Part shown: in pieces, positions 163 through 28,473 of the stretch
Position numbering within the stretch: the stretch's first letter is position 1
Layout of the letters: every line of letters starts with the position of its first letter
DNA from: Cyanobium sp. Cruz-8D1
GTDB taxonomy: Bacteria; Cyanobacteriota; Cyanobacteriia; PCC-6307; Cyanobiaceae
Direction: 5' to 3'
DNA: 64,000 nt
NCBI RefSeq assembly: GCF_024345975.1
Contig: NZ_JAGQCD010000021.1
Location: 1 to 64,000, forward strand
Translations under genes and position numbers: made by a program
Notes under the pieces: model-generated
Told to the model about the DNA's origin: nothing
The model's database searches: none
Seen by the model: only the letters and a program-made list of their open reading frames with translations

Positions 163-2313
163 GTGGATGGCGTGAGCGCAGGCATTATGCGCAACAGGCT
201 CCTAGCGCCCCGGTTGCAGGAGGCAATCGTTGCCCGGCTGGGCTGGAGCAGCCTGCGCCCGGTGCAGGAGCAGGCCGGCGAGGCGCTGCTGGCTGGTGCC
301 AACGCGGTGATCCTGGCGCCGACGGCCGGCGGCAAGACCGAAGCCTCCATGTTCCCCACCATCTCCCAAATGGTGGAGTCGGCCCCTGATGGCGTTGGCG
401 CCCTCTACATCGCGCCGATCAAGGCCCTGCTCAACAACCAAGCCGAGCGCCTTGGCCTCTACACCGAAATGGTGGGCCTGCGCCGCTTCGTGTGGCATGG
501 CGACACCGACGACTCCTCCCGCCGCAAGTTCCTCAAGGAGCCGGCCGAGCTGTTGATGACCACCCCCGAATCCCTGGAGGTGATGCTCGTCTCCCAGCGG
601 GTGGACGAAGCCAAGCTGTTCGGTGATCTGCGGATTGTTGTGATCGACGAGGTGCATGCCCTCGCTGGCTCGGACCGGGGTGCGCACCTGATGAGCGTGC
701 TGGAGCGCATCGCCCGGCTGTCACGCCATGACCTGCAACGAGTTGGCCTCAGCGCCACGGTCGGCAATCCTGCTGCGATCCTCATCTGGTTGCAGGGTTC
801 CTCTCAGCGGCCGGGTCAGGTTGTAGATCCACCGAAACCTGCGAGCCGCCGCCAACTGCTGGTGGTTCACCGGCCGGAGCTGCGGTTGCTCGCCCACGAT
901 GCTGCCCGGATGGCCCAGGGCCAGAAGAGCCTGTTCTTCTGCCAATCCCGCGCCATCACAGAGAAGGTGGCCGAAACCATGCGGCGGGCTGGCACCACCG
1001 TGTTCGTGCACCACAGCGCTGTCTCCAAGGAGGAGCGCCTCCTCGCCGAGGAGGCTTTTCATCGGAGCACGGCGGATGGCAGTGGTGCTTGCATCGTCTG
1101 CACCTCCACCCTCGAGCTGGGTATCGATGTGGGTGATCTCGATCTGGTGCTCCAGGCCGATGCCCCGGACACGGTGAGCTCGTTTTTGCAGCGCATGGGC
1201 CGCACCGGCCGGCGTGATGGCCAGGCTGCCAACACCACTTTTTTCTGTGAATCCAGCGAGAGCGTGCTGCAGGCCACGGCGTTGATCGAGCTGGCCAAGC
1301 AGGGATGGGTAGAGGACGTGCCGATTCAGGGCCGCTGCTGGCCTGTGCTCATCCACCAGCTGCTCACCATGGCCTTGGCCGGTGGTGGCATAACAGCAGA
1401 AGACGCCTGGAACCACCTCTCCAAGGTGCCGGACTTCGCCGGAATCAGCCGACCAGAGTATGAACGCCTCATCCGCTGGCTGCTCGCTGATGGCGGGCTG
1501 CGGGAGGCCTCAGGCCAGCTGGTGATCGGTCCCAAAGCGGAGAAGCGCTTTGGCCGCAAGAACTTCATGGAGCTGTTTGCGGTGTTCACCAGCCCGGTCA
1601 GCTACACGGTCGTGACGGCCGCAGGGCAGCCCCTCGGTTCGCTGCAGCAGGAGTTCGTCGATCGCCTGGTCGATGGGGTCAGCAGCTTTCTGCTCGGCGG
1701 CCGGGGCTGGGTGGTGCAGCGCATCCAGCACGATGACCGCCGCGTGTTTGTGGATCCCGCTCCACGCGGCAAGCAGCCCACCTGGGGTGGCTACATCCCC
1801 CAATTCCTCGGCCTGGAGGTGTGCCAGAAGATGCGCGACATCTTGCTCTCCTCAACAGCCTTCCCCTATCTCGATACGCAAGCCGCGGCTGTCCTCGAGG
1901 AGAAGCGAGAGGTGATCCAGCCGCTCTTTCAGTCCGGCCGCGGCGGCATCGAGGTGAAAGATGGCGAACTCCGCTGGTGGACCTTCGCTGGCGGCAAGAT
2001 CAACGCCACGCTGCGCTATGGCCTTGAAGCTGTCGGCGGTGACTGGAAAATCACCACCGACAACATCCTCGTCAAGGCCAAGGGTGAAGGCATAACGCCC
2101 GAGCGGTTTCACGATGCGATCCAGCGGCTGGCCTTACCTGATATCTGGGACGACGCCAAGCTCTGGAAAGATGTCGCTGAATCACTCCCTAACTACAGGC
2201 TCAGCAAGTTTCAGGACCTGATGCCGGAGTGGGTGGAGCAGGAAGTCATTTCTAAGTATCTGTTATCAGTAAAGCGAACCCAAGGATGGATAGCCGTAAC
2301 GGAAATTGCCTAG
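163..2313 (+). CDS. Lhr-like superfamily 2 DEAD/DEAH helicase (BrxHI-like)
   Basis: A 716-residue SF2 helicase that should couple ATP hydrolysis to movement on, or remodelling of, nucleic acid. Visible motifs are Walker A APTAGGKT (Lys58), the DEVH box near residues 162-165, SAT near 197-199, and the motif VI segment QRMGRTGRR near 346. The size and the long C-terminal region after the two RecA folds fit the Lhr-like group that includes BrxHI of type 2 BREX (Pgl) phage-defence loci. The start used is GTG at 163; ATG at 187 is an alternative. No partner BREX gene is visible, since upstream genes lie outside the window, so the BREX link is inference. The TAG stop falls inside a perfect 18-bp palindrome. 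Confidence 0.85.
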   Translation: MDGVSAGIMRNRLLAPRLQEAIVARLGWSSLRPVQEQAGEALLAGANAVILAPTAGGKTEASMFPTISQMVESAPDGVGALYIAPIKALLNNQAERLGLYTEMVGLRRFVWHGDTDDSSRRKFLKEPAELLMTTPESLEVMLVSQRVDEAKLFGDLRIVVIDEVHALAGSDRGAHLMSVLERIARLSRHDLQRVGLSATVGNPAAILIWLQGSSQRPGQVVDPPKPASRRQLLVVHRPELRLLAHDAARMAQGQKSLFFCQSRAITEKVAETMRRAGTTVFVHHSAVSKEERLLAEEAFHRSTADGSGACIVCTSTLELGIDVGDLDLVLQADAPDTVSSFLQRMGRTGRRDGQAANTTFFCESSESVLQATALIELAKQGWVEDVPIQGRCWPVLIHQLLTMALAGGGITAEDAWNHLSKVPDFAGISRPEYERLIRWLLADGGLREASGQLVIGPKAEKRFGRKNFMELFAVFTSPVSYTVVTAAGQPLGSLQQEFVDRLVDGVSSFLLGGRGWVVQRIQHDDRRVFVDPAPRGKQPTWGGYIPQFLGLEVCQKMRDILLSSTAFPYLDTQAAAVLEEKREVIQPLFQSGRGGIEVKDGELRWWTFAGGKINATLRYGLEAVGGDWKITTDNILVKAKGEGITPERFHDAIQRLALPDIWDDAKLWKDVAESLPNYRLSKFQDLMPEWVEQEVISKYLLSVKRTQGWIAVTEIA

Positions 2314-2323: not shown

Positions 2324-2441
2324 ATCGATTATCAATTCAAGTTATTTACATACTTCGGCCTCCCCTAAGGCAGTTGCTTGAAATAGGCAATAGCGATAAA
2401 TTGGCATGGCTATTATGGCGGCTAAAATACAACAGGCAATG

Positions 2442-3383
2442 CTAGAGCTGAAAGTCAAGCAAGCATTTCTTTTCGTTGCTCTTGAGAACTTCTCCGTCAA
2501 AGCTTAGCAGGCAAGGGGCTTGAACAATTCCTGCCTCTATGATTGCGGTAAGCATCACCGAGAACCCAATCGCAATGCTCAGCCATTGGACCTGCAGCAA
2601 TTGACAATGACGCAGGTCAGCTTGCCTTGTCTTTGCCAAAGTTGAGATGGCAAGCGGTTCCACAATATACTGCTGATAGGGATCCTTGCTCAGCTCTCCA
2701 GTGTTGCACAGTGAGTCAAGAATATACTCAGTCTTTAGCTTAATCGAGTCGACATCTGGGTGACTAGCCCAGTAGATCGAATACTTCCTCGTTAAAAGAT
2801 CGTGCACATGAAAGCGAGTTCGATTAAATGCGTATTGCGCAATCACATACTCAAGCAGCTTGTCCCTGTCGGCTTCCTCCAATGTCTTAAGCTGAAATAG
2901 CTTCTTTCGTACAAAAGATACGACCTGCCTAAACAAGGCAATGCCGTAGGGGAACATAGTAAGCCGTTTTAGATAATAATCAATAATGCCATTAATGATG
3001 ATATCGTGAATTCCCCAATATTGAACAAACTGAATTCTTCTGCCTTTTAGTCTGGCGATGCTCATCTTGGAGTCACCCGAGTATTGCTGCGCAGCCTTGT
3101 CCCACGCTTTGCCTTTAATGACAAGGCCTTGGCATGAAAGCACGAGGAAGCAAGGCTCTCTATTTTCGAGAATATGAACGCGCTGGCAATTCACATGACG
3201 AGCATCGTCTCCCGATCTTGGAATACTGCCAACACACAATCGCTCGGTTGCCCTAGCAAGCGCTGCCTTGGCCAGTAGAAGCCCTACACGAAACTTGAGC
3301 CTGTCAAGCCTCTTTAGCTGCCTTCTCATAGAACGCTTGATTTTTTCACTGAAAAGTGTTTTTGCAGGATACTTTTGGATCAT
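2442..3383 (-). CDS. Hypothetical protein with C-terminal membrane segment
   Basis: A 313-residue protein of no family I recognise. The N-terminus is strongly basic (many Lys and Arg within the first 40 residues). The middle is soluble-looking and rich in Tyr, Lys and Ile. Near residues 270-292 there is one clear hydrophobic stretch (WLSIAIGFSVMLTAIIEAGI), followed by a short tail. The DNA is visibly more AT-rich than the core genome, which suggests transfer. It stands alone between the helicase and a degraded stretch, in the same orientation as the three-gene module upstream of it. A membrane-tethered effector in a defence context is possible but unproven. Confidence 0.6.
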   Translation of the reverse strand: MIQKYPAKTLFSEKIKRSMRRQLKRLDRLKFRVGLLLAKAALARATERLCVGSIPRSGDDARHVNCQRVHILENREPCFLVLSCQGLVIKGKAWDKAAQQYSGDSKMSIARLKGRRIQFVQYWGIHDIIINGIIDYYLKRLTMFPYGIALFRQVVSFVRKKLFQLKTLEEADRDKLLEYVIAQYAFNRTRFHVHDLLTRKYSIYWASHPDVDSIKLKTEYILDSLCNTGELSKDPYQQYIVEPLAISTLAKTRQADLRHCQLLQVQWLSIAIGFSVMLTAIIEAGIVQAPCLLSFDGEVLKSNEKKCLLDFQL

Positions 3384-3593
3384 CAGTAAAACAGCAGTTT
3401 CTTCTATTCGGCAGATTTATCCTATTTATTGTCTGCGCTGCTGCTTTGTATCGTGCTTCCTTGCAACCGTAGCGCCTCCTCGTATTCAGCACCGATCCCC
3501 AGCCCTGAGTCCTCATCTGGGGTCAATCGCTACCGCTGCGCGGGCCTTCGGCTACATGCCCACGTGGATCAGGCAGGCCAGGGCCAGGTCGCT

Positions 3594-3950
3594 TCAGCTG
3601 CCGAGCAGTGTCTTGATGCTGCGGGAGGTGCCGGGCTCATTGATCTGCAGCCCACCCTGACCGACGGGCGCCACCTCGCTGGGCAGCGCCATGAAGCGCT
3701 GCTGATCCATTCCCTCAACAGCTGCAGGGCTTGGAGGCAGGCGCCCAAAGCTCTGTCACTCCCCCCCGCCATGCCTTTGCCAGCTCGTACTTCCTCGCTA
3801 AGTCGATCCCGGCGCCCTGCCCCGGCAGCAGCTGCTGCGCACCCACATAGAGGATGCAGCAGGCCACCTGTAGGACTGAGATGGTGGTGCATCCCTCGTA
3901 CCGCTGCAGTTGGTGCTTCTGGTTGGGGTTGTTCTGGCCACATCGGATTA
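3594..3950 (-). pseudogene. Possible degraded reading frame in the 3384-4004 gap
   Basis: This 620-base gap has no convincing intact gene. One minus-strand frame reads protein-like from roughly 3950 down to a stop at 3594, interrupted by an in-frame TGA at 3756-3758. The last intact piece runs from ATG 3710 to the stop at 3594 (38 residues, containing GGLQINEPGTSRSIKTLLGS). The upstream piece reads ...HQLQRYEGCTTISVLQVACC... I recognise neither. The rest of the gap shows nothing further. The frame may be chance coding potential in GC-rich DNA. Confidence 0.25.
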
Positions 3951-4004
3951 GAAGAACGGAACTCCGCAGTGACCCATGAAGCGGCTTTTCAATTCACTTA
4001 AAAG

Positions 4005-9716: not shown

Positions 9717-10331
9717 ATGTCAGTACTGAGCGAGCAGATCCTGGAAGCCGCGGGCAAGCGCCCGGATGGATCCCTGCTGGCTGCCAAGCAGTTCCTGGCG
9801 CTGGCCAACCGCGCTGCGGTGGACCAGGCCCTGAGGCGCCTGGCCGCTCGCGGCAAGCTCGTGAAAATCACCCGCGGCCGCTACGCCCTGCCCATCACCA
9901 GTCGCTTTGGCATCAGGCCTCCGGCGCCGGAGGTGGTGATCGCTCAGCTCAACCAGGAGGGTGCCCAGCAGCTGGTGAGTAGCGGTGCCGCCGCGGCCAA
10001 TGCCCTTGGCCTCACCACCCAGATGCCGGTGCAGCAGACCTTCCTGGCCCGCACCCGCAGCCAGAAGCGCTACGTCTTCGGGAAGCAGCAGGTCACGATC
10101 CGTCCGGCAGCCGCCTGTAACTTCCTGCTGCCCGATCGCCCTGCTGGCCAGGCGATCCGAGCACTCATCTGGCTTGGCCCCGATCAGGCTTCAGCAGCCA
10201 TGCCGACGCTCCGCCGTGTGCTGCCGCCGGTGGAGTGGGATGGCCTGCTCGCCGTTCGCGCCGAGCTGCCCCTGTGGCTGGCGGAGCTGCTGAGTGAACA
10301 GGCTCTAGAGCCGCAGAAGGCTCATGGCTGA
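9717..10331 (+). CDS. abiEi: AbiEi-type antitoxin (DUF6088 family)
   Basis: A 204-residue type IV antitoxin and autorepressor. The N-terminal 60 residues form a winged helix-turn-helix (QFLALANRAAVDQALRRLAARGKLVKITRGRYALP). After this comes a domain with SSGAAAANALGLTTQMPVQQTFLARTRSQKRYVFG, typical of the DUF6088/AbiEi group. Its stop overlaps the start of the toxin gene by 8 bases, so the two are translationally coupled. In the known AbiE system the antitoxin does not bind the toxin but counters its activity and represses the operon. Together the pair stabilises mobile DNA or aborts phage infection. ATG 9717 is the first good start after the operator repeats. Confidence 0.85.
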   Translation: MSVLSEQILEAAGKRPDGSLLAAKQFLALANRAAVDQALRRLAARGKLVKITRGRYALPITSRFGIRPPAPEVVIAQLNQEGAQQLVSSGAAAANALGLTTQMPVQQTFLARTRSQKRYVFGKQQVTIRPAAACNFLLPDRPAGQAIRALIWLGPDQASAAMPTLRRVLPPVEWDGLLAVRAELPLWLAELLSEQALEPQKAHG

Positions 10332-11385
10332 GTCCTGGTTCGCGCTTTCCCCAGAGGACCAGAAGGAAGCCCTGGCGGTCGCTGCTGCCGAATCTGGCTG
10401 GCCGGCCAACCTGCTGGAAAAGGACATCTGGGTGGTCTGGGCCCTGCAGACCCTGGGGGCAGAGCAACAGTTGCTGGAGACCCTCACCTTCAAGGGGGGC
10501 ACTTCGCTCTCGAAGGCCTATGGGCTGATCGATCGCTTCTCGGAAGACGTCGATCTCACCCTCAACATCCAGCACCTCTGGCCTGAGGTTGATCTCTCAG
10601 CAGCAGTCAATCCCAGCCAGGCGGACAAGCGCCGAAAAGCCGCAGATAGAAAACTCAAACAGTGGGTCCGGGAGATCCCCATGCCGCTGCTCCAGGCTGC
10701 TGCCGCTGCAGCCGGTGTCACCCTTGAGCTGGATCTGGAGCAGCCAGAAGCAGGCCGCCGGCAGCCACCCACCATCGTCATCCACTACCAACCGCTGATC
10801 CCAGCGGCAGACAACAGTTCCGGTTATGTGCGGCCGACGGTGCGGCTGGAGTTCGGCGCCCACTCCACCGGTGAACCGCATGGGCCGATGCCCATCTCAT
10901 GCGAAGCGGCGACCCATCTGGCGATGCTTGACTTCCCTGCCGCCAGGCCACTGGTGATGGACCCGAAGCGCACCTTCCTGGAGAAGGCCGCGGCCATCCA
11001 TGTCTCATGCAGGAAGGGCCGCTGGGGCAGCGGCGAGGGCGAGCGCTATTCACGGCACTGGTATGACCTCGATCGCCTGGCCCGTGCAGGTATCGCGGAG
11101 GCGGCGATCCGTGACCGGCCCCTCGCCGTTGAGGTGGCACAGCACAAGGAGGACTTCTGGCGTGCCACCGACGCCGATGAGCAGCCCATCAACTACCTCC
11201 ACGCCCTCAATGGCAACCTGCAGCTGGTGCCGATCGACGCCGCTCGGCAGGCCCTGGAGGCTGACTACAAAGCCATGACCGACTCGGGCATGCTGCGCGG
11301 CGAGATCCCGAGCTTCGCCGAGCTGCTGCAGCGAATCGCACTGTTGGAGCAGCAGTGCAATGCCATCGGCAGCACTTTCACCTGA
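10324..11385 (+). CDS. abiEii: AbiEii-type nucleotidyltransferase toxin
   Basis: A 353-residue member of the AbiEii/AbiGii nucleotidyltransferase toxins, DNA-polymerase-beta fold. The catalytic signature is intact: GGTSLSKAYGLIDRFSEDVDL, with GG at 58-59 and the acidic residues at 74, 76 in the SEDVDL segment. KAADRKLKQW, the central GYVRPTVRLEFG and a C-terminal KRTFLEKAAAIH segment also match. Homologues transfer nucleotides to tRNA or other targets and stop growth. It lies directly behind the antitoxin with an 8-base overlap. The active-site residues appear intact, so it is probably functional. Confidence 0.87.
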   Translation: MAESWFALSPEDQKEALAVAAAESGWPANLLEKDIWVVWALQTLGAEQQLLETLTFKGGTSLSKAYGLIDRFSEDVDLTLNIQHLWPEVDLSAAVNPSQADKRRKAADRKLKQWVREIPMPLLQAAAAAAGVTLELDLEQPEAGRRQPPTIVIHYQPLIPAADNSSGYVRPTVRLEFGAHSTGEPHGPMPISCEAATHLAMLDFPAARPLVMDPKRTFLEKAAAIHVSCRKGRWGSGEGERYSRHWYDLDRLARAGIAEAAIRDRPLAVEVAQHKEDFWRATDADEQPINYLHALNGNLQLVPIDAARQALEADYKAMTDSGMLRGEIPSFAELLQRIALLEQQCNAIGSTFT

Positions 11386-11708: not shown

Positions 11709-14501
11709 CTATGCGGGGAGTTCACCAGTGGCCCGGTAGAGCAGCCCACCTCTGGGGCCCTCGCTTACCTCTCCGACACCCAGCTCTGCCAGAGCCTGCA
11801 TGGCCTGCTCGGCCAGGGCGGCATTGGTTCCCTTCTTCTCCTTGGAGTTCATCTGCTGGCGCAGCTGCCCCCAGGTGACCGCGCTCCTGGCCTTGCGCGC
11901 CAGGGTGTGAATGCGCCGCATCAGCGACGAAACGCCTCCTTCCTCGTCACCCGCCGCGGCCTGCTCATGGAAGCCCAAGGCCCAGTCATCCATCGTGTCG
12001 ACCAACTCGATGGCCCGCTGCAGCGTGGCCACCGGAACCTCCAGCTCACCCTGCTCATTCAGCACCGCCAGCTCCAGCAGGTGCAGCAACACCGCGACCC
12101 GCAACACCTTGCCCGCTGACTTGCCATACAGCGCACCCTGAGCATCAAGCCGGGCCTGCTGCGCCTGGATTTGCTTGTTGTGCTCGTAGACACTGAAGGC
12201 CTCGATCGCCTCAAGATCCAGCTGGTAGCGATGCGCCGGCATCGTGTAGATCCGGCGGGCATAGGCCTGCAGAGCCTGATTCGCACCGTTCACGGCTGCC
12301 ACGCCCTCGTCGCTGATCAGGGTGGGCAGGGGCACCGTGTTCTCCGGCAAGGGCGAAAACAGGAAACGTGCCCATTTGCCTGATGGGTCGCCGCCCTTGA
12401 TCAGCTCCCGCAACACACCGGGCTGAATGGCCCCGTAAATGCTCACCTGGCAGCGGTCATAACTGCGATCACCGGCTGACACCCGCAGCGAGGTGTAGGC
12501 CTGCCCGTCAAACAGCTCGAGCAACTGCTGTTCATCGGAGCCTCTGCCCGATCGGTAGGCGTTCATCGAGCCAAACAGGCCCGAGAGCTCATCGCGCAGC
12601 ACCAGCACACTCAGGCCTCGTTTATCGAGTTCCTGCAACTGCTGAACGAAGGCCTCTCCGGTGTAGTCCTGAATCTGCAGGTAGATCGCCACCGGCTTGG
12701 GCGGTCGCTCGTCCTTGGTCTTGCAGCCTCTGCACTGCTCACGCCAGGCCTCCATCGCACGGGTGTTGGCGGCAGCCATTTCCCGTTTGAGCTCGTGCGC
12801 CGGTCGGCGGACCAGCAGCTTCTCTAATGGCGTTTTCTTCTGACCGGAGCGGCCCACCGTGGCGACATACAGATTCGCCGGGGTGACGAAATCGGTGTAG
12901 GGGTTGCCGCAGATCGTCGTGCCCAGCTTCACCAGGCCGCTGATGCCAGCCAGATAGGCCGTCGCCACCACGTGATCGCAGTACGGCAAGTATTCCGTGA
13001 TTCGCTTGAGCGCATCCGCCAACGGCAGCGGGAACAGGCGATCCAAAGTGATGGGTGCACGCGCCTGGTGCCGAGCCAGGTCCTCTTCCAGAGCGCTGGC
13101 TTCCTGCAGCAGGACATCCCGCTGCTCCTCCTCCAGCCGGACGGCGGCGAGCAACTGCCTGAGTTCCTGGGGATGGAGCTCGGCTGCATCCACCAGATCC
13201 CCGAGCAACAGCTCCAACTCGGTGGGCGACTGATGGGCTGCAACCGCTTCCCGCAGCCGATCGCGGCACTCCTCACGGCTCAGCGGCGGTGGCTTGCTGG
13301 GACCGGAAGAGGCATCAGCGGATGCCCCACTGCTTGCGCCTTGGGACTCGCCGCGGCCGCGCCAACGGCGGGTGCGATCACCAGACAGCCAGGCGTAGTG
13401 GCGCTCCGCCTTATCGGGATCGCTGGGGCGACAGCCCGCCCGATCGATGGACGCCAGAACCCGCTCCGCCTTGTCGCCGATGTCGAGGGCGGCAATTGCC
13501 TGCCCCAGCAGCTGGTCAGGATCACCCTCAAACCTCAATCCCTGATCCAGCAGGAGGTTGTGCCAGCTCCAGAGCTCCTTCACGAAGCCGGTGAGCTGGA
13601 GGCTCCGATCGGGCGCGGCTGATGCATCCCCGCCATAGGGCCGTCCTCCCGCCAGCACGTCCTGCGCCTTGCTGCCGATCAGGTCAGCCAGCTGCGGGCA
13701 GGTGCTTACGCCCGTCGGTGCTCGCCGCTCACTGGCCGGCGGCGGCAGCAACGGTGGCGATGGGGCGGCCGGCTCTGGCGCGACCTTGACCTCCGGGAAG
13801 ATGCCGATGGAAGCCAGGTCAGGCACCTCCATAAAGCGGTAGGCCGCCTCGGGGTTGATCAGCTCATAGGGGCCCTTGCCATTGCGGGTCGGGGCACAGA
13901 CCGACACCCGCGTGCCGGCAAGAACTTCGCCGCGATGCGGACCGCCCTGTTCTGTCGTGAAGTTGCAGTGCAGGCCACCTCCAGGTCGCTGCCAGCTGAC
14001 CATCCGATCCGTGACCCGGACATAGATGTGCACCCCGCCGCTGGGGGTGCGCTCCATGCGGGTGTCAGCGAGCACTGGGTACCTGTCGACCAGGTTCATC
14101 CAGTCCTCTTCCAGGTTCTGAACGCTGCCGTAGTGCTTGGTGTCGAAGTCGATCGACACCACTTCCCCGCCGGGGATGACAGCCAGGCCGATCTCCTTGC
14201 CCAGTCGCTCAGCTATCGCAATCCGCTCCAACAGCATCTCGGGCGGTACCGGGCGCGCATGGCTGATCAGCTGGGGCTCACCATCTCCACGCCAGAACGA
14301 TGGGTTCTTGCCCGTGATCGCGGGCTGCAAGGCGCCGCTCTTGAGAACAGGCTCCCACTCACCGGTGGCCTGGCTCTTGCGGCGCCTGGGGCATAGCTCC
14401 GCTGGTAGCTCCACCGGAATGATGGTCTGCAGCTGGATGCCCTGAGACGACAGGCGACTAACTTCCTCCCAGAGCAGGTCGTAAGCAGAGGGTTCAGACA
14501 T
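11709..14501 (-). CDS. Prim-pol / DUF3987 replication protein
   Basis: A 930-residue protein with an N-terminal archaeo-eukaryotic primase-polymerase domain and a C-terminal DUF3987 helicase-like region. Prim-pol motifs are VVSIDFD (acidic residues near 118-121) and TPSGGVHIYV (His near 159). A Pro/Ala/Ser-rich linker lies around residues 250-280. The DUF3987 part contains VATVGRSGQKKTPLEKLL in the P-loop position and VLRDELSGLFGSMNAYRSGRGSDEQQLLELFDG. Such proteins are the replication initiators of many phage satellites and integrative elements. It probably primes replication of this island after excision. ATG 14501 is chosen over GTG 14504. The RHH gene lies just upstream on the same strand. 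Confidence 0.85.
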   Translation of the reverse strand: MSEPSAYDLLWEEVSRLSSQGIQLQTIIPVELPAELCPRRRKSQATGEWEPVLKSGALQPAITGKNPSFWRGDGEPQLISHARPVPPEMLLERIAIAERLGKEIGLAVIPGGEVVSIDFDTKHYGSVQNLEEDWMNLVDRYPVLADTRMERTPSGGVHIYVRVTDRMVSWQRPGGGLHCNFTTEQGGPHRGEVLAGTRVSVCAPTRNGKGPYELINPEAAYRFMEVPDLASIGIFPEVKVAPEPAAPSPPLLPPPASERRAPTGVSTCPQLADLIGSKAQDVLAGGRPYGGDASAAPDRSLQLTGFVKELWSWHNLLLDQGLRFEGDPDQLLGQAIAALDIGDKAERVLASIDRAGCRPSDPDKAERHYAWLSGDRTRRWRGRGESQGASSGASADASSGPSKPPPLSREECRDRLREAVAAHQSPTELELLLGDLVDAAELHPQELRQLLAAVRLEEEQRDVLLQEASALEEDLARHQARAPITLDRLFPLPLADALKRITEYLPYCDHVVATAYLAGISGLVKLGTTICGNPYTDFVTPANLYVATVGRSGQKKTPLEKLLVRRPAHELKREMAAANTRAMEAWREQCRGCKTKDERPPKPVAIYLQIQDYTGEAFVQQLQELDKRGLSVLVLRDELSGLFGSMNAYRSGRGSDEQQLLELFDGQAYTSLRVSAGDRSYDRCQVSIYGAIQPGVLRELIKGGDPSGKWARFLFSPLPENTVPLPTLISDEGVAAVNGANQALQAYARRIYTMPAHRYQLDLEAIEAFSVYEHNKQIQAQQARLDAQGALYGKSAGKVLRVAVLLHLLELAVLNEQGELEVPVATLQRAIELVDTMDDWALGFHEQAAAGDEEGGVSSLMRRIHTLARKARSAVTWGQLRQQMNSKEKKGTNAALAEQAMQALAELGVGEVSEGPRGGLLYRATGELPA

Positions 14502-14592
14502 CACCCCTCAGCCAGACACTTGCCTTCTCTGGATGTAACAGCACCAACCGCGCTGTGATGAACTGCAGTAGCCTCATGAGATCCCTCTCGTG

Positions 14593-14850: not shown

Positions 14851-14904
14851 TAATCCACTCCCAAGTTTGGGAGGCAATTTGGGAGGCAAGTTGGGAGTGG
14901 ATTA
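14851..14904. repeat. 14-bp perfect inverted repeat enclosing tandem 12-mers
   Basis: TAATCCACTCCCAA (14851-14864) is the exact reverse complement of TTGGGAGTGGATTA (14891-14904). The 26-base interior holds two adjacent exact copies of TTTGGGAGGCAA (14866-14877 and 14878-14889), so TTGGGAG occurs three times in a row. The block lies 50 bases before the excisionase-like gene and 47 bases before the start of the divergent RHH gene. It looks like an operator or recombination-directionality site. Confidence 0.7.
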
Positions 14905-14953: not shown

Positions 14954-15238
14954 ATGGACAACGTGGTCACTGAACTCACTGCTCAGCTGGCACAGCTCTC
15001 AGCCCAACTCAAGCTGCTGAATGCACAGAACCAGCCGCAGCCCGCGCATAAAGCAAGCCCCTGGCTACCCCTGCGCGAAGCAGCACAACTACTGCACTTC
15101 AAATCACCCCGCGCCCTCAAGGCCCGGATCTTGCGCGGCGGCTTCCCTCCCGACTGCTACCGGCAGCTGCCCTCACCCTCTGGCAAGCGCCACTCCTATC
15201 TGGTGAATGTGGAGCGCTATCTCAAGACGCTGCGCTGA
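14954..15238 (+). CDS. Excisionase-like small DNA-binding protein
   Basis: A 94-residue protein. An N-terminal coiled coil (VVTELTAQLAQLSAQLKLLN) precedes a compact domain, WLPLREAAQLLHFKSPRALKARILRGGFPPDCYRQLPSPSGKRHSYLVNVERYLKTL. The domain has the helix, turn, helix, wing and final helix order seen in excisionase/AlpA-type MerR-like proteins. Its 3' end overlaps the 3' end of the integrase gene by 17 bases in convergent orientation. The position next to an integrase and after a structured repeat block supports a recombination-directionality factor; this role is inferred. Confidence 0.65.
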   Translation: MDNVVTELTAQLAQLSAQLKLLNAQNQPQPAHKASPWLPLREAAQLLHFKSPRALKARILRGGFPPDCYRQLPSPSGKRHSYLVNVERYLKTLR

Positions 15239-16367
15239 GCACGGCCTGCAGTGACTCCATCTCGTGGGCATCAAACCAGCGCTGGTAGACGCTGCTATGC
15301 ACCGCAAGGCTGTGGCCCATCGACTTAGCGGCCAGCGACGGGGAGATCTTCGGGTTGTGAATCGCCCGAACCGCCCAGGCATGGCGCAGGTCATAGGGCT
15401 GAAATGCAGCCCCAGCACGGCGAAACGCCTGCCCCATCAAGGCACCGACATCCCGGTGGCTGCGCTTCTGGTTGAAGGCCGGGAGGCGCTTGTTCTGCAG
15501 CGACCAGCGTTCGATCCAGTCGGCCGGTAACGCCAGCGACTGACGTGAACCGGTCTTGCCATCAGTAATGCGGAGTAGCCCGGACGGCTGCACCTCTGCG
15601 AACAGCAGCGCCTCGTGAGGCCGGCAGCCGTAGGTGGCGGCTACCGCCACAGGCCACTGCCATGACGCAGAGAGGCCATCGATCAACGCCTCGATTGCCT
15701 CGTCGCGAGGCAGCTCGCGCGGAGACTGACTGCGTGCCGCGCTGTAGCCCTTGCCAAGTTCCCGCAGTTGGGACACCAGCTCCTCGGGCCAGTCGAGCGC
15801 CCTGGCCACGGTGGCCGCAGCCTGGGAGGCCCGCCGGCGCGACCGACTGCCAGCCGTTGTGGCCTCCACCACAGCCACCAGGTGCGCAGGCTCGAGGTTG
15901 CTGATCGCGATCAGCGGCGCTAGCGGTGCTTCGTAGTCGACCTTCCAGCTGTCGTCAGCGGAAGGTCCTCGGCGCCGCTGCTTCCCCCACCAGCCGCGGG
16001 TCAGGCGGATCGCCTGGCGTCCGCTGACCCCCTGCGACTCTTCTGTCGCTTCCGATTGCGGGTCCTGCCGTTGACGCCCCTTCGGCAGCCATGGGATCCA
16101 ATCAAAGGTCTCTGCCCCAAGCCGGTGGCGCTCCAGCGCATTGCCAAGCTGCTCGGCCAGCTGCAGTGCCTCGCTGGCCTGATCCGGATAGGCGAGGCCC
16201 GTGCTGATTCGGTGTTGCCTGAGTCCCGTCCCAAGCGGATCGGTCGGCCGCGGCGGCATGGTCGCCCGTAGCCGCACCCGAGCACCCACCACATCGAGGG
16301 TGACTCCGTGGCCTTTCAGCTTCAGAGCAGCGTTCTGGCGGCTGAGCCAGGGATCTGAGGGGGGCAC
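15222..16367 (-). CDS. int: Tyrosine recombinase / integrase of the island
   Basis: A 381-residue phage-type integrase that should insert and excise the island at the adjacent tRNA-Arg gene. Catalytic residues read as Arg249 (ATYGCRPHEALLF), Lys271 (TDGKTGS), Arg328 in YDLRH, His352 (SMGHS) and the nucleophile Tyr361 (SSVYQRW). The usual His of the HxxR box is replaced by Tyr325, an accepted variation in the family. The N-terminal 150 residues would hold the arm-binding and core-binding parts. Its start is 144 bases from the tRNA 3' end, with four TTGCCTA repeats between them. Confidence 0.9.
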   Translation of the reverse strand: MPPSDPWLSRQNAALKLKGHGVTLDVVGARVRLRATMPPRPTDPLGTGLRQHRISTGLAYPDQASEALQLAEQLGNALERHRLGAETFDWIPWLPKGRQRQDPQSEATEESQGVSGRQAIRLTRGWWGKQRRRGPSADDSWKVDYEAPLAPLIAISNLEPAHLVAVVEATTAGSRSRRRASQAAATVARALDWPEELVSQLRELGKGYSAARSQSPRELPRDEAIEALIDGLSASWQWPVAVAATYGCRPHEALLFAEVQPSGLLRITDGKTGSRQSLALPADWIERWSLQNKRLPAFNQKRSHRDVGALMGQAFRRAGAAFQPYDLRHAWAVRAIHNPKISPSLAAKSMGHSLAVHSSVYQRWFDAHEMESLQAVLSAAS

Positions 16368-16372
16368 CGGAC

Positions 16373-16433
16373 TTGCCTAACCACTTGCCTAATCGTGGTC
16401 GATCCGTGCCGATTTGCCTAGCTTTTTGCCTAA
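16373..16433. repeat. Four TTGCCTA direct repeats between integrase and tRNA
   Basis: Copies start at 16373, 16385, 16414 and 16426. Spacing is 12 bases within each pair and 41 bases between pairs, a regular two-by-two layout. Three copies extend to TTGCCTAA. They lie just before the integrase start and inside the expected attachment region, so arm-type integrase sites or an integrase operator are the likely roles. Confidence 0.65.
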
Positions 16434-16510
16434 CAACCAGGGGTGGGCAGAGGGCTTTTCCGGGGCCTTTCTTCCCTGAAAACCCTCTCTGCGACTGGGG
16501 GTTTTAAGAA

Positions 16511-16584
<74 letters not shown>

Positions 16585-16776
16585 ATCCCTGTGATTATGA
16601 AGGCTGCCGGACCCCGCCACGGCCAGTGCCTGACACCCTGAACCCCGGAACAGGGCAAGGGCCTGCTCGGACGTCTTCACTTGAAAACCCAGCGCTGGAC
16701 TGGGGATCCTGGCCCGGGACCAGGCTGTGCGGGTTCACGAACGAAAGAAAGCGGATTCTGTGAAAAGGGTGAAAGG

Positions 16777-28344: not shown

Positions 28345-28473
28345 GGTAGATGGGCACAAGATGTTCAGTGGCTGCATCAAACCCATGCGGCAACCGAACA
28401 GCGGACATAGGCAATGGGGCCGGTGAAACCCTAAAAACCGTAGGCGTCCCGACAACATTTGCGAGCCGAGCAC

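Follow-up and report, generated by a model that had tools for sequence, protein, structure and literature searches.

The DNA analysed here (the window) is a stretch of 64,000 nucleotides from Cyanobium sp. Cruz-8D1 that forms the left end of contig C23, in an assembly totalling 3.97 Mb. Its first part, from the contig start at position 1 to position 16559, is the portion on this contig of a genomic island whose far end lies on contig C74. The integration target is a tRNA-Arg(CCT) gene on the minus strand (16510-16585), and directly downstream of it stands int (15222-16367, minus strand), which begins with GTG and encodes a tyrosine integrase of 381 aa. Convergent with int lies the gene of a small protein (14954-15238, plus strand) that is called excisionase-like from its position only. 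Toward the contig start, the island carries genes for a DUF3987/primase-helicase-like protein (11709-14504), an AbiEi/AbiEii pair (9717-11385), a Gp157-type protein and a Rad52-type protein, and then brxHI of a BREX system (163-2313, plus strand; PADLOC E 3.3e-265). An open reading frame occupies 3429-4001, and a gene at 2442-3383 converges on brxHI. At the far end, the island side of C74 bears a large terminase gene and genes for an ImmA-type regulator, a PIN protein and a Fic protein. A related 62-kb island in genome G198 encodes BrxL, HerA-type and TGT-domain proteins (among the 10 ORFs scanned), plus a terminase.

The leader between the tRNA gene and int contains four copies of the heptamer TTGCCTA (plus strand), which read TAGGCAA on the minus strand. 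Numbered from the tRNA, they lie at 16426-16432, 16414-16420, 16385-16391 and 16373-16379, with steps of 12, 29 and 12 bases as the first-pass annotation had reported. The TAG of the fourth copy is in frame with int and forms a stop codon 12 bases ahead of its GTG, and the same copy supplies an AGG eight bases ahead of that GTG. No sigma-70-like promoter was recognised in 16300-16620. That annotation had also placed correctly a TTGCCTA palindrome at 2306-2312/2317-2323 and a further copy at 2384-2390 (minus strand); one more copy occurs at 28408. The window thus holds eight copies, whereas shuffles average 2.61 (sd 1.52) and none of 100 reached eight. Throughout the 3.97 Mb of the genome there are 109 copies, or about one per 36 kb, so that the heptamer is not dense genome-wide; the reversed motif occurs 290 times. 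Chance clustering had been thought unlikely at both places, and local counts bear this out: positions 16368-16509 contain four copies (shuffle mean 0.019) and positions 2262-2500 contain three (0.084), numbers reached in 0 of 3000 dinucleotide shuffles in either case. In a less favourable test, which accepts any heptamer present at least four times in the int leader, 112 of 20000 shuffles qualified. Direct pairs of TTGCCTA 5-22 bases apart are found in this genome only in the int array and at C74:8040-8058.

The product of int is a tyrosine recombinase (phage integrase), as judged from its catalytic set and from its family and fold matches. R249, K271, R328, H352 and Y361, which we take to be the catalytic R, K, R, H and Y, are invariant in all 15 integrases compared, and Y325 occupies the position of the H in HxxR. 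The protein matches phrog_1 (E 1.7e-8), while its Pfam Phage_integrase match (E 0.034) is below the cut-off. No relative was retrieved from GenBank phages at E 1e-5. A model of the whole protein (pLDDT 79.9, pTM 0.45) matches the folds of integrases, Xer and integron recombinases with Z scores of 10-12.8; lambda Int is represented among the matches by 1z1g and by the full-length structure 5j0n_F, which aligns over model residues 1-380 (Z 11.0, rmsd 8.5, 301 aligned). The N-terminal 96 residues are modelled (pLDDT 88.7) as a helix, three strands and a helix. Fold matches to this domain are weak, with ribosome hibernation factors first (Z 5.2-4.8) and the arm-binding domain of a P4-like integrase, 3rmp_C, at rank 4 (Z 4.5, 57 aligned, 2.7 A). 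Foldseek returned nothing for it at E <= 0.001, a profile search against solved structures gave nothing significant, and no Pfam arm-binding domain was found in the window integrase; one relative reaches Arm-DNA-bind_3 at E 0.038, under the cut-off. The predicted N-terminal fold is compatible with an arm-binding domain, short of proving one.

Related integrases, whose named records belong to Cyanobium, Synechococcus, Microcystis elabens and cyanobacterial MAGs, are preceded by the same array. Twenty-nine upstream regions were scanned, every one of them found through its integrase. Four exact TAGGCAA copies stand at -65 (or -66), -53, -24 and -12 in nine (L001, L025, L026, L027, L032, L035, L036, L038 and L039), and three others (L028, L029 and L037) have the same four copies with one changed base. 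The leaders of L025 and L035, of L027 and L039, and of L028 and L037 are identical, so the independent number is smaller than the number of loci. Another eight regions (L041-L048), before integrases 52-55% identical to that of the window and at other tRNAs, contain four TAGGCAC-type copies in almost the same positions, with steps of 11, 31 and 12. A regular four-copy array is missing in the remaining nine (L030, L031, L033, L040 and L049-L053). Among these, the array is shifted in L030 and consists of four degenerate copies in L033, of three copies plus an inverted one in L040, and of three in L052; no copies precede int in L031, L049, L050, L051 and L053, where the match to the integrase is partial or broken. 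Integrases about 33-37% identical (L054-L063) have neither a tRNA in the preceding 600 bases nor an array, and were not counted as relatives. Over 10 distinct int leaders, the arm columns are 98.6% alike, as against 85.8% for the spacers and 58.4% for the stretch from core to arms.

The targets of these elements are tRNA-Arg(CCT), tRNA-Ser(TGA), tRNA-Leu(TAA) and tRNA-Met(CAT), and tRNA-Pro(GGG) in the case of the distant L052. Although L040 and L041 share one kind of target, a tRNA-Leu, their heptamers differ, which argues that the motif goes with the integrase and not with the tRNA. This link rests on identity levels, since a tree of 15 integrases, with a single starred branch among its 12 inner ones and with three long rows, has too little support to carry it. 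Elsewhere in the same Cyanobium genome, at C14:70621-71722 (L002 and L003), a second integrase, which is broken, lies next to a tRNA-Met and has an array of the TAGGCAC type. Inspection by eye of other integrases of this genome (L005, L006, L007 and L008) revealed short direct repeats of other kinds, with TCTCAC- or TTCTCTTGC-type units, close before int; they may follow the same layout with motifs of their own.

At the far end of the island, 50 of 50 bases of C74:8093-8142 are identical to window 16559-16510, that is, to the tRNA-Arg sequence from the anticodon stem-loop to the 3' end. This repeat (16510-16559, minus strand) is the att core, attL being the copy in the window, and the tRNA 3' end is duplicated on C74, where no whole tRNA gene was found. 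A pair of heptamers 12 bp apart stands on the island side of the C74 core, and the 23 bases at this pair match window 16370-16392 at 95.7%. The core occurs only twice in the genome, in the window and on C74, which are separate contigs. Its inner 44 bp are present in two copies in 5 of 32 genomes (G000, G167, G198, G208 and G119), in one copy in 26 and in none in G183. The same five are those, among the 32 tested, in which a tRNA-Arg integrase of this clade is present as more than a fragment. In G167, one core copy belongs to a complete tRNA on C28 that lacks adjacent arms, the other belongs to attR, and the int contig begins inside the core; the second copy in G119 has one mismatch, and the duplication in G198 extends over 53 bp at 96%. 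G030 retains an integrase fragment and decayed heptamers beside a single-copy tRNA-Arg, and G143, which lies outside the 32-genome count, a longer fragment with four heptamers, one altered by a base. Used as a probe, the paired heptamer located the C74 far end as well as both ends of the 62-kb island in a one-contig genome.

An empty site was sought by DNA with the right flank of C74 in 42 genomes of the genus, and only a contig-end repeat and short pieces in other genomes were recovered. At the protein level, 5 of 30 neighbourhoods (L163, L164, L167, L172 and L173) have a relative of a 338-aa gene of C74 downstream of the tRNA. This is only suggestive, because the identity is 26-29% and a gene of that family on the window side gives a better match there (33-40%).

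Counterparts of the two ends stand together in two IMG/VR contigs, L180 and L181, which were found via the integrase (84%). Each has two heptamers, the core, four heptamers and int, in that order and with no tRNA gene, and has C74-like DNA on one side and window-like DNA on the other. This layout could represent the attP predicted from attL and attR, or the junction of tandem islands as in G208. In that genome (L101, on C81), far-end arms and core run directly into another int-side array, so that two such islands stand in tandem at tRNA-Arg. A small element at tRNA-Leu in G159 (L099, on C3) has heptamer arms at both ends, with about 5.5 kb between att repeats of 61 bp (98%).

The distance of the outer pair from the core is fixed. 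It lies at exactly -57/-45 from the anticodon stem in seven of nine far-end junctions, namely L021, L097, L098, L101, L180, L181 and the tRNA-Leu element L099, whose integrase is 50% identical to that of the window. The eighth, L302 in G119, was found via the core alone and has TAGGCAA at -57 and a copy two bases off at -45; in the ninth, L026, whose integrase is 97% identical, the other side of the core has neither tRNA nor heptamers. Five of the nine (L021, L097, L098, L101 and L099) were located through the heptamer pair, so that the presence of the pair there is by construction and only its distance counts as evidence. The four found without it comprise two exact pairs, one half decayed and one junction with no pair. 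The 14 columns of the outer pair are identical in six copies, as against 56% in 76 other columns, a conservation that is partly by construction and that we do not count, four of the six having been retrieved with the motif itself. At least 120 stretches of viral contigs that carry the bare paired heptamer were left out of all counts. With the exception of L026, then, predicted arm-type sites are repeated on both sides of the core.

We conclude that the four heptamers are very probably arm-type sites on the int side, used by a tyrosine integrase of the two-footed lambda style. The first-pass annotation had listed integrase arm sites among its readings, and for these four copies that reading is now strongly supported by the far-end pair, the contigs with two heptamers, core and four heptamers, and the array before related integrases. 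A free attP would accordingly read: heptamers at -57 and -45 from the anticodon stem, a core copied from tRNA-Arg between the anticodon stem-loop and the 3' end, heptamers at +123, +135, +164 and +176, and int. The N-terminal domain of Int would hold the heptamers as the catalytic domain cleaves within the core, and arms on both sides would fold attP into an intasome, a scheme that accounts for every part observed. Integration would split attP into attL, with the whole tRNA and four arms (in the window), and attR, with two arms and a 50-bp fragment of the tRNA 3' end (on C74). Since the int leader is occupied by the four arms as far as the start codon, binding of Int probably represses int as well; with an in-frame stop and an AGG supplied by the fourth heptamer before the GTG, it should lower the expression of int.

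The palindrome at 2306-2323, some 14 kb from the array, presents a different picture. It lies between converging genes with the brxHI stop codon inside it, and together with the single heptamer at 2384-2390 it is judged to be outside the recombination site. By itself, it may be a transcription terminator between brxHI and the gene at 2442-3383, a reading on which the balance tilts only slightly to the negative. Its placement between two converging genes and a terminator-like match on the minus strand with 7 pairs speak for this function; against it, 0.3 such matches are expected in shuffles, and the predicted RNA folding is weak (z -1.28 and -1.06, with 28 and 32 of 200 shuffles folding as well).

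That palindrome and array form one system, either a shared operator or a secondary Int site, is very improbable. It is true that three heptamers within 85 bases exceed local shuffles (0/3000), that no other inverted TTGCCTA pair 0-30 bases apart exists in this genome, and that TTGCCT/AGGCAA is dense in the AT-rich segment 2262-3459 (8 vs 1.16 in shuffles, reached in 0/3000). However, the palindrome is inverted while the array is direct, and no other genome in which the integrase is at least 50% identical contains one; G181, with an integrase 31% identical, has one on a different contig. Across 299 genomes, 15 such palindromes occur in 14 genomes, as compared with 12 for the reversed control, a generous control in that the reversed heptamer is 2.7 times commoner in this genome. 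Moreover, the brxHI DNA of the nearest relative, G167, is 83.5% identical as far as window 2261, where similarity breaks off until 3459, which indicates that a swapped or inserted segment starts at 2261. The palindrome and the gene at 2442-3383, the latter present in 3 of 299 genomes including this one, sit in this segment that G167 does not share. An earlier suggestion of a nested element ending near 2.3 kb was right to the extent that a segment boundary relative to G167 falls at 2261, and failed in that neither a tRNA nor a copy of the att core is found there. Thus, the palindrome seems to be no part of the recombination machinery and appears unrelated to the array.

The proposed operator common to two regions of the island finds no support at the excisionase-like gene either, as TTGCCTA is absent from the 220 bases before it in 14 of 14 loci (57 bases only in L038). 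Among the 26 loci compared, 18 others have a relative of this gene next to the integrase, and its product has no Pfam, PHROGs or significant NCBIfam match. Just upstream of it, at 14866-14897, is a 12-bp tandem repeat, TTTGGGAGGCAA, in 2.7 copies. L025 and L026 retain it, in L181 it is altered, and in six relatives at tRNA-Leu or tRNA-Met its place is taken by inverted ACCGTGCA pairs. The tandem repeat looks like an operator. That the int array itself is purely regulatory, with a repressor or the excisionase-like protein controlling int and no role in recombination, is most improbable: the sites do fill the int leader to 12 bases before the start codon, and regular direct repeats are typical of operators too, but the same pair recurs at the far end of the island, beside an att copy, far from int and at a fixed distance from the core.

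Taking the heptamers as arm-type sites, a broader reading can be offered tentatively, although we regard it as rather doubtful. The geometry measured from the anticodon stem, two heptamers beyond the core and four in the int leader, would be kept as integrases move among at least four different tRNA genes, the last base of the heptamer, A or C, would mark two integrase lineages, and the int-nearest site, doubling as in-frame stop and ribosome-binding region, would tie arm occupancy to translation. In such a "portable arm code", the base would keep neighbouring islands of the A and the C lineage, both present in this genome, from cross-reacting.

Arm-type sites of tRNA-targeting integrases have long been known, and their mechanism is textbook knowledge. 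The Int protein of phage lambda binds core sites and arm sites, the arms flanking the core on both sides. The present system shares with lambda the arms on both sides of the core and an integrase model with which full-length lambda Int aligns over residues 1-380; unlike lambda, its target is a tRNA 3' end and all six heptamers point the same way. Another parallel is the KplE1 prophage of E. coli, for which the published account describes an intS promoter that overlaps attL, with binding and autoregulation demonstrated (PMC2951348). KplE1 likewise has an integrase beside a tRNA gene (argW there), arm sites between core and int, and attL in the int leader (PMC2951348). The island described here differs in having its heptamers in a two-plus-four arrangement, with one that forms an in-frame stop right before int, and in that arm binding is predicted from sequence. 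By description, the island also resembles the tycheposons, cargo islands that have a tyrosine recombinase and adjoin a tRNA, and that were first reported from Prochlorococcus (PMC10872708); as a point of difference, C74 carries a large terminase gene. We found no paper on this array in a literature search outside which most subscription journals lay. What is new here is a well-delimited array, of interest because its two-plus-four geometry stays fixed over several tRNA targets and because the heptamer switches between A and C. An unlabelled repeat thereby becomes a marker for island ends, one that helps to delimit islands with phage-defence genes (brxHI, AbiE) in picocyanobacteria, and the array gives a rule, open to testing, for which integrase uses which arm sequence.
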